Below, one piece after another: positions 36,295-39,200 of a DNA stretch of 64,000 nt. Both the position numbers and the translations under genes were made by a program. Source of the DNA: Branchiostoma floridae (Eukaryota; Chordata; Leptocardii; Amphioxiformes; Branchiostomatidae); assembly GCF_000003815.2 (NCBI RefSeq), contig NC_049992.1, positions 15,487,002-15,551,001 of the forward strand, in the 5' to 3' direction. Under the pieces are notes generated by a model. The model did not search any database, was not told the origin of the DNA, and worked only from the letters and a program-made list of their open reading frames with translations. The number at the start of each line of letters is the position of its first letter. The stretch's first letter is position 1.

Positions 36295-39200
36295 TCACTT
36301 TTCTTTCCTGAGGGCTTCGATGAATTCTTCCAACTTCTCTTGAATTCCCCGAACTTTCTCTGCAAGGACACAAGTACAAACAATTAGACATACTAAAATC
36401 ATTGACATTAATCAAACTTACACATCTACATTGACAAGTATTATACCCAATATGCATTCAGGAACAAAGAAGGAAAAATGTATGGTATTGCATGTAGGAG
36501 AAATAGCTCAATGTGCTGAAGATGGCAAAGTGGTCTTGCAGTTAGAATCACTGGCAGGACCCAAATGTTGTGAAGTTGTGACCTTGGGAAAGGTACTTTA
36601 TTACTAAACATGAAACTAGAGGCCTGCTGTTTGAGGGGAGCCATACCTCCAACTCATTACATATCAATCTCATTGAAAAGAGGCCATGAAATGGATCAAA
36701 CCTTACACTTACAGTCTGGTCTTATGAAGCTTATACCTACCGTACAAACCTGGTGTGTTTCACCATAAGGTGGTTTACCAGCTATGCAAAAACAAACAAA
36801 CTTACTGAGTTCCTCAGCTAGTGTAACCCTCCTCCCTTGTAGCAGGCCCAGTTTCTTCTGTGGATCCTCGCCGAGGTTCTCTAACATGTGCTTCACTTCC
36901 TTCTCTAGTCTACGGGCTAGAGGAAAACAACACACACAAACATCATCACATGTGCTTCACTTCCTTATCTAGTCTACGGGCTACAGGACAACAACACACA
37001 CAAACATCATCACATGTGCTTCACCTCCTTCTCTAGTCTACGGGCTACAGGGAAACAACACACACAAACATCATCACATGTGCTTCACTTCTTTCTCTAG
37101 TCTACGGGCTACAGGACAACAACACACACAAACATCATCACATGTGCTTCACCTCCTTCTCTAGTCTACGGGCTACAGGGAAACAACACACACAAACATC
37201 ATCACATGTGCTTCACTTCCTTCTCTAGTCTACGGGCTACAGGACAACAACACACACAAACATCATCACATGTGCTTCACCTCCTTCTCTAGTCTACGGG
37301 CTACAGGGAAACAACACACACAAACATCATCACATGTGCTTCACTTCTTTCTCTAGTCTACGGGCTACAGGACAACAACACACACAAACATCATCACATG
37401 TGCTTCACCTCCTTCTCTAGTCTACGGGCTACAGGGAAACAACACACACAAACATCATCACATGTGCTTCACTTCTTTCTCTAGTCTACGGGCTACAGGA
37501 AAATAACACACACACAAACATCAAATGTGCTTCACTTCTTTCTCTAGTCTACGGGCTACAGAAAAACAAATATTATCACAGGATGGTCCAGACCATAAAC
37601 TCAGAATTTCGTAGACTTCTTGCTTCTGCCATGTTCATTATTTTCACTATCTTTTCAGTTTCAGTATTTCATGATTCTTTTACACCTATCCATTTACTAG
37701 ATATTGCCTGGCTGTTTTCCCTCAACAAAATGGAAGAATCAGAATCTTGGACAACTCCCATCAGTGATGACTTAAAGTATTCATCCAAGAGATTCAGAAA
37801 GGGTCATTTTCATGTGCAAAGCAATCGTTGAAGAGTAAATACTAAAAGTAAACCAAGGCTACTTCTAAGCCACTGTATCCAATTTTCAGACCAATCCAAT
37901 TCAAAACTCATATAGCACTGGCTACCAAACCAAACCATGTACAAATGTATTCACAATGAAGACACCCTAATGCCGGGTACACTTCATGTATGTAAGAAAG
38001 TAAGAGTTGTGTGTGAACATACCTTCAGTGTTCATGATCTGTTGTCGGAGTGCATTACTGGTACACTGTAACATCTTCTGTATTCTCCAGAACAGGACAA
38101 TGTCATGGCACTCCAGCTGGGAGAGAAAATGTAAAACAAAACATATTTTTGCAAAGAAGTCAGAAAATTCACACATTAAAGTACAAGTGATCTCAGACCA
38201 GTTTAGTTCACTGAAGGGTTAATCTTCCAAAGGTTGTGACAGAGAAGATAGACGCTATATATAGTATTTACAGATTCATTGTACAGGGCAAACAAGTTAG
38301 TACAAAACATTGACTGATGGTTAAGTAGTTTTCAGCCCATTGACTGTAGTCTCATACTATCATGGAAACATTTTCGCAGTGGTTTTCAGTTGGCGGTGTA
38401 GCGGTCACCGCGAACATAAAACCACCACAAATATTTCTGCATTTACAGCACTACCTCTTGTGGGTAACTCTGCAATGTTGATCTAATGAATAAAGATACT
38501 ATGAGTGACTGGAACCTACTACCACAAGTGGTGGTCGAAGCCATCACCATTGACACGTTTGTGTCAATGGTCTCCAAGCTTATGTGAAAACCGAAACCTT
38601 GGCCGGTGACCTTGACCCTTCACTCACAAGCAACAAAATAATCAGCATGTTGATTGTGGTCGCTTCAACAGGAAGAGGAAGATTAAAAGATTGAAAAACA
38701 AAATGGTATTTAGGTCATTACGTCATGAAAATGAATAGGAATATACGTGCACAGGTTGTTTCATTCAAGGTTCCTGCCTTGAAGAGGACTGTACTGCAAA
38801 CATGCAGGGGGACATGGGGAAAACAGAGAGGAGCCAAACTTGTGGATGCCCGTCTCTGTAAGAGTAACTGAAGTCACCAAGTATCTGATGTAGGAGAGAC
38901 CACTATTGTACAAACTATACTGGACATCGGCAAATGGACAATGGAATAGGCAAGACTATCCACTTTTTATTGACACTTACACAGATTCTTGACTACGTCG
39001 CTGTATGTTATTTTCTGAAATGATGCCCAAGACTAAAATGACGACTTTGGGGTGTAAAAATTGGATCCTTGTATTATTGCTGTTAGTGATATGAAATGGA
39101 TCAAATTGCACAGCTGATCAATCAAACCTGGATTGTTGTGATCGAAGTCCCGTTAAACCATCACTGACATGTTGGAAAAACTGTAATTTCAACAACATCC

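Follow-up and report, generated by a model that had tools for sequence, protein, structure and literature searches.

Two tandem arrays spanning 3' splice sites in the OPA1 gene of Branchiostoma floridae, and their likeness to amphioxus mirages

Described mirages and the Adh3-like gene

Mirages, tandem minisatellite-like repeats of cephalochordate genomes whose units lie over an exon-intron boundary and carry its splice signal, have been described for Adh3 of amphioxus (Canestro et al. 2002, NAR, as cited in PMC3087553 and PMC3902484) and for the globin genes BflGb6 and BflGb9 (PMC3087553), and splice-site tandem repeats have been reported in lancelet for TnC and PGBD5 (PMC3902484). It has also been stated, from RT-PCR and mRNA data, that splicing appears undisturbed in the mirages that were examined (PMC3087553, PMC3902484). 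A sequence-only reading of the stretch analysed here (the window, 64,000 nucleotides of Branchiostoma floridae contig NC_049992.1) had likened its finding to such arrays, as described from another locus; the class is indeed in print, though from several loci and not from one. Mirages are thus an already known class, and OPA1 is a new host as far as the open-licence literature searched shows, no OPA1 mirage having been found in print there; a term search in the main text of the amphioxus huntingtin paper PMC2206037 returned neither 'mirage' nor 'minisatellite'.

The Adh3-like gene of the same assembly was used as a positive control and has arrays like the published Adh3 mirages: a 59-bp array ends at the acceptor of an exon and a 33-bp array starts at the donor of the same exon, the true acceptor being last and the true donor first in their arrays, as judged by reading frame. 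All four translated decoy acceptors of this gene reach stops, the nearest one only after a frameshift. At this Adh3-like locus (L024, 4027-5376) the intron between exons (4371 to 4841) is almost wholly made up of two tandem arrays, with 29-bp units adjoining the donor and 59-bp units at the acceptor. The presence of the same kind of array in this gene upholds the earlier view that the 64-bp OPA1 array described below is an amphioxus mirage. Mirages are not everywhere, however: in one myosin stretch of 4,301 bases all 12 of the family-match ends examined, which are not proven exon ends, were free of duplication; the Myosin_head search listed 142 exon matches.

The OPA1 arrays share with the Adh3 mirages units of tens of base pairs over a splice site, a live consensus and a true site that, by reading frame, only the copy attached to the exon body provides. 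They differ in that the Adh3-like gene has donor as well as acceptor arrays, whereas both arrays found in OPA1 lie on acceptors, and in that length instability has been reported for the Adh3 mirages (PMC3087553), whereas the OPA1 arrays are known from one assembly. BflGb6, which has 6 and 3 units in its two haplotypes, resembles them in a unit that joins the 3' end of the intron to the 5' part of the exon and in edge copies that lie outside homogenisation, but globin mirage units measure 150-160 bp (PMC3087553), whereas the OPA1 units are of 64 bp, in the array that has ten decoys, and of 128 bp, in the one that has two. Splice sites are likewise duplicated in PGBD5 and TnC, and PGBD5, like OPA1, carries a pair of arrays, although these are other genes and PGBD5 copy number varies by assembly version (PMC3902484).

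Two acceptor arrays in OPA1

The minus strand of the window carries OPA1, whose exons were located from 58413 down to 36298 by tblastn with a human OPA1 query; translated, the last exons match human OPA1 (PDB 8eew, E 3.9e-51) and the Pfam family OPA1_C (E 1.1e-60), in agreement with the gene name given by the sequence-only reading. The penultimate coding exon (36806..36916, minus strand) is 111 nt long, with acceptor CTCTAG/CCCGTAG and donor CTCA/GTAAGT; it is preceded by an exon at 38023..38116 (minus strand) that ends ...GAA G/GTATGT in phase 1, and followed by the last coding exon (36295..36359, minus strand), which gives the C-terminal end ...EALRKEK and then a stop near 36295. The introns flanking the penultimate coding exon measure 1106 and 446 nt, with 467 nt upstream to the most distal decoy, and those flanking a 142-nt exon at 48664..48805 (minus strand) measure 657 and 500 nt, with 401 nt upstream to the most distal decoy.

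The acceptor of exon 36806-36916 lies within a minisatellite at 36884..37569 (minus strand), delimited by TRF and unit alignment, with a period of 64, 10.7 copies, 93% matches and a score of 1204 (TRF), far above chance. Each unit combines an intron tail of about 33 nt with an exon head of 31 nt, the latter length as had been proposed, and ten decoy acceptors precede the genuine site, which is accordingly the last in the direction of transcription; nine decoys are spaced by 64 nt, whereas the step to the most distal is 63 nt. On the minus strand, decoy 1 occupies 36950..37013 (acceptor before 36980), has GAT (Asp) for GAG in the exon head and reaches its TGA at codon 12; it is followed by decoys 2 (37014..37077, acceptor before 37044), 3 (37078..37141, before 37108), 4 (37142..37205, before 37172), 5 (37206..37269, before 37236), 6 (37270..37333, before 37300), 7 (37334..37397, before 37364) and 8 (37398..37461, before 37428). 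Decoy 9 (37462..37525, acceptor before 37492) has a diverged intron tail and decoy 10 (37526..37588, acceptor before 37555) is the most distal. Ungapped identity to the genuine unit over 64 nt is 95-97% for eight copies, 83% for decoy 9 and 70% for decoy 10, so that the earlier description of the decoys as near-identical holds for the eight and fails for the two most distal.

Both the AG and the phase are kept in all ten decoys, as had been claimed: the upstream exon ends in G and each copy begins CC CGT AGA. A TGA stop is reached at codon 12 in every one of them; the codons CAC ATG TGA, previously attributed to every decoy, are found in nine, the most distal reading CAC ATT TGA. A decoy product would retain 11 residues encoded by this exon, and the 47 C-terminal residues of the protein would be missing. 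The stops lie 140-715 nt before the 3' end of the exon, well upstream of the last junction and beyond the 50-55 nt of the usual rule for nonsense-mediated decay, and decoy products of this array are therefore likely to be substrates for that pathway. Together with decoys that look usable (see below), this supports the expectation that decoy use would give a premature stop and probable decay.

A second mirage-like array was detected by TRF at 48765..49092 (minus strand), over the acceptor of exon 48805-48664, with 2.5 copies of a 128-bp unit; it was absent from the finding of the sequence-only reading. Decoy 1 (48893..49020, minus strand; acceptor before 48933) and decoy 2 (49021..49092, minus strand; acceptor before 49061) each have an in-frame TAG and then a TGA, the TAG standing where the exon has GAG and the TGA behind it being derived from the intron, and the decoy reading frame stops at codon 7. 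Decoy 1 agrees fully with the genuine site over the 22 nt before it and the 17 nt after it; of 128 positions, 7 differ.

OPA1 hosts two splice-site arrays, both on acceptors. A scan covered the boundaries that could be placed, 21 acceptors and 16 of 17 donors (the motif of the other donor was not found, and one donor position is 2 nt off), which leaves aside the first exons, the acceptor close to 53.7 kb and any exon lying from 45985 down to 44288. It showed duplication at 2 of the 21 acceptors, namely those of the two arrays, and at none of the 16 donors. Acceptor 53536 had a weak match of 18 nt, which fails to cross the boundary.

Other repeats occur in the same window. An 856-aa open frame with leucine-rich repeats (39095-41665, plus strand) lies antisense in the large OPA1 intron (43436 to 38116); the frame itself includes two coding tandem arrays of 51-bp (17-aa) units, at 40475-40808 and 41342-41624, with repeated tyrosine motifs. 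Upstream of the first placed OPA1 exon, a 281-bp tandem array (60516-61254) has 2.6 copies at 100% identity and is either very recent or an effect of assembly. The window and the surrounding 200 kb together hold 94,932 N in 264,000 bases. Two 42-bp tandem arrays (31628-31858 and 33802-33986), about 2 kb apart, have units that by eye look related and in opposite orientation; the second lies within a minus-strand frame that has a sub-threshold endonuclease match (E 0.0028) and is perhaps a piece of a non-LTR retrotransposon.

Decoy signals, stops and growth of the 64-bp array

An acceptor matrix was built from 19 OPA1 acceptors, both mirage exons being left out, and the native acceptors obtained leave-one-out scores of -2.1 to 14.3 (mean 7.0). 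The genuine acceptor of the 64-bp array scores 8.96, against 5.88-8.78 for its ten decoys; that of the 128-bp array scores 11.38, as does its decoy 1, and decoy 2 scores 10.07. All 12 decoys of the two arrays (10 of 10 and 2 of 2, each with its AG) fall within the native range and thus look like usable acceptors as far as their signal goes. Given such near-equal scores, strength alone hardly separates genuine from decoy, and for decoy 1 of the 128-bp array it does not do so at all. Since the genuine site of the 64-bp array has the longest pyrimidine run (9 versus 4-7) and the top score (by 0.2-3.1), acceptor strength may there act alongside position. Copies 1-8 share with the genuine copy two candidate branch points, UGAU at -30 and at -27, neither of which strictly matches yUnAy.

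The stops, on the other hand, are readily obtained by chance. Tandem duplications simulated over a grid of sizes at 20 of the 21 placed OPA1 acceptors, both mirage acceptors among them, gave a decoy-frame stop in 4246 of 5760 cases (73.7%) and a frameshift instead in 668 (11.6%), so that the enrichment of stops beyond chance which would characterise a poison splice site is not seen. In the 64-bp array the stop arises where intron TGATGA is joined to the exon head, and the stops within one array are one copied event, not ten. The stops need no selection, because the simulation yields them at 73.7% and a single event has been copied; they are a by-product of intron copied beside exon and no adaptation, and in view of the simulated rate the in-frame stop is rejected as a mark of selection, a designed poison feature being unsupported. 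The location of the arrays is similarly unexceptional: random intervals in the gene cover at least one of the 21 acceptors in 51.5% of trials for 686 bp and in 30.1% for 328 bp, and an array on an acceptor therefore needs no special cause.

The internal order of the 64-bp array gives some indication of its history. Copies 1-8 alternate strictly between two kinds, with an identity of 0.99 at lag 2 and 0.94 at lag 1 (order-shuffle p = 0.024); what sets the two kinds apart is the pyrimidine tract and exon-head codon 7, and codon 6 shows further variation within one kind. This alternation suggests that the array grew partly by 128-bp pairs. The intron tail of the most distal decoy can be aligned to the 64-bp unit only with gaps over the GT-run, and for this reason the decoy probably retains the end of the intron as it was before expansion. 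On this evidence, the array may have begun with one tandem duplication over the acceptor, joining exon head to intron tail, followed by growth of the GT-run and then by repeat expansion, with the later increase by 128-bp pairs arising through slippage or unequal exchange. In the two most distal copies (37462-37588) the 31-nt exon heads carry no private change and the intron tails have diverged, a combination for which pure drift does not obviously account. The intron tail of the unit is a GT-rich, slippage-prone stretch, a possible factor in the divergence of the distal tails. Edge copies have been described as escaping homogenisation in the globin mirages as well (PMC3087553). All three variable exon-head columns of the array fall at third codon positions (31 nt); constraint was considered and rejected as the reason for this, the changes being too few and one of them altering the residue (GAG to GAT).

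Choice among near-equal acceptors

The sequence directly shows the repeat units, the decoys with their signals preserved and, at each array's 3' end, one intact exon. We consider it probable, at roughly three chances in four, that both arrays are mirages, that is, neutral minisatellites over a 3' splice site that are tolerated through exon definition, their stops being incidental. They would be ordinary minisatellites derived from tandem duplications that chanced to span a 3' splice site. With flanking introns of 401-1106 nt, the exon would be defined as one unit, donor-bound U1 pairing with the nearest usable upstream acceptor, and this would always be the true one, because only the true copy is joined to the whole exon. 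Since only the copy on the exon body yields a complete exon, an array could survive only if that copy wins. Occasional use of a decoy would end translation at codon 12 in the 64-bp array and at codon 7 in the 128-bp one, and such rare products would probably be removed by nonsense-mediated decay, which would leave the array close to neutral.

It has been reported that once introns exceed about 200-250 nt, preference goes to the acceptor and donor that lie nearest to each other across the exon, whereas short introns favour the upstream acceptor (PMC9225289); applied to the long introns found here, exon definition predicts the genuine site in both arrays. This prediction is opposed by the classical intron-centric rule (Reed and Maniatis, as cited in PMC9225289), under which decoys further upstream would be preferred. 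Competition between near-equal sites by position is common to that work, to Carranza et al. (PMC9225289) and to the present arrays, although the former concern in vitro constructs or human alternative sites, whereas OPA1 offers natural series of 11 and 3 sites. We infer from the intact reading frame that the genuine acceptor is the one used; position would then be the obvious cue in the 128-bp array, whose genuine site and decoy 1 are indistinguishable by score.

The alternative that fares best, though we regard it as improbable, is that the decoys act as leaky poison acceptors, a fixed share of transcripts using them and decaying, so that array length would set OPA1 output by allele and by tissue. 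It would be in keeping with decoys of native strength, with in-frame stops in 12 of 12 decoys of both arrays and with the position of the 64-bp-array stops, 140-715 nt before the exon end and hence past the 50-55 nt rule, as well as with the reported length instability of the Adh3 mirage, said to be even somatic (PMC3087553). Such stops are nevertheless expected by chance in the simulation, and regular splicing has been reported for the globin mirages by RT-PCR and for those of Adh3 and TnC from mRNA (PMC3087553, PMC3902484). The more specific proposition that two unstable arrays set the amount of full-length OPA1 through leaky decoy use and decay seems to us slightly less probable again; nothing here favours the dose hypothesis over neutral tolerance, and the suggestion of the sequence-only reading that copy number tunes OPA1 dose is not supported.

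Active silencing is about as doubtful. Here UG-tracts would bind a UG-specific repressor such as TDP-43 and hide the decoys, while the genuine site would escape by its longer pyrimidine run. A (TG)4-5 run does precede 10 of the 11 acceptors of the 64-bp array and the genuine pyrimidine run is the longest of the 11 (9 versus 4-7), yet the genuine acceptor is among the ten that carry the UG-tract and the most distal decoy is the one without it. A (TG)4 tract is, moreover, short for strong repressor binding. CFTR exon 9 offers a precedent for such a mechanism (PMC12171016), but the tracts of the 128-bp array are C-rich and another explanation would be needed there, which makes UG-tract repression unlikely to be general.

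Tandem arrays are error-prone in assemblies, one aberrantly assembled mirage is mentioned in PMC3087553 and for PGBD5 different assembly versions give different copy numbers (PMC3902484); the copy number of the 64-bp array may be wrong in the assembly. That the array as a whole is an assembly artefact is, however, very unlikely in view of its ordered two-kind copy pattern and diverged edges, the single match to it in the 513-Mb assembly and the independent documentation of the mirage class. Least credible of all, and here dismissed, is RNA folding that hides the decoys and exposes the genuine acceptor: the exon-derived GCACAUGUGAU is predicted to be able to pair with the GU-tract and the first ten exon bases of the genuine copy are predicted to be the most accessible of the 11, but the predicted fold of about six units is no better than that of shuffled sequences (z = -0.16, with 47 of 100 shuffles at least as good) and the genuine pyrimidine tract and AG are predicted to be the least accessible of the 11, leaving neither a special fold nor better access at the tract or AG by which structure could act as selector.

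Mirages have been proposed as raw material for new introns (PMC3087553), and by analogy the OPA1 arrays would be candidates for such material. With one decoy of identical score in one array and ten comparable decoys in the other, the two arrays of this single gene constitute a natural splice-competition experiment on equal acceptors, in which, over 12 decoys, an intron-centric rule predicts the upstream decoys and exon definition predicts the last copy. Human OPA1 is dosage-sensitive. If the decoys are used at all, array length would be a measurable source of variation in OPA1 expression, and if leaky use and decay did set the amount of full-length OPA1 and the arrays varied somatically as reported for Adh3, a dosage-sensitive gene of mitochondrial fusion would differ between adjacent cells.
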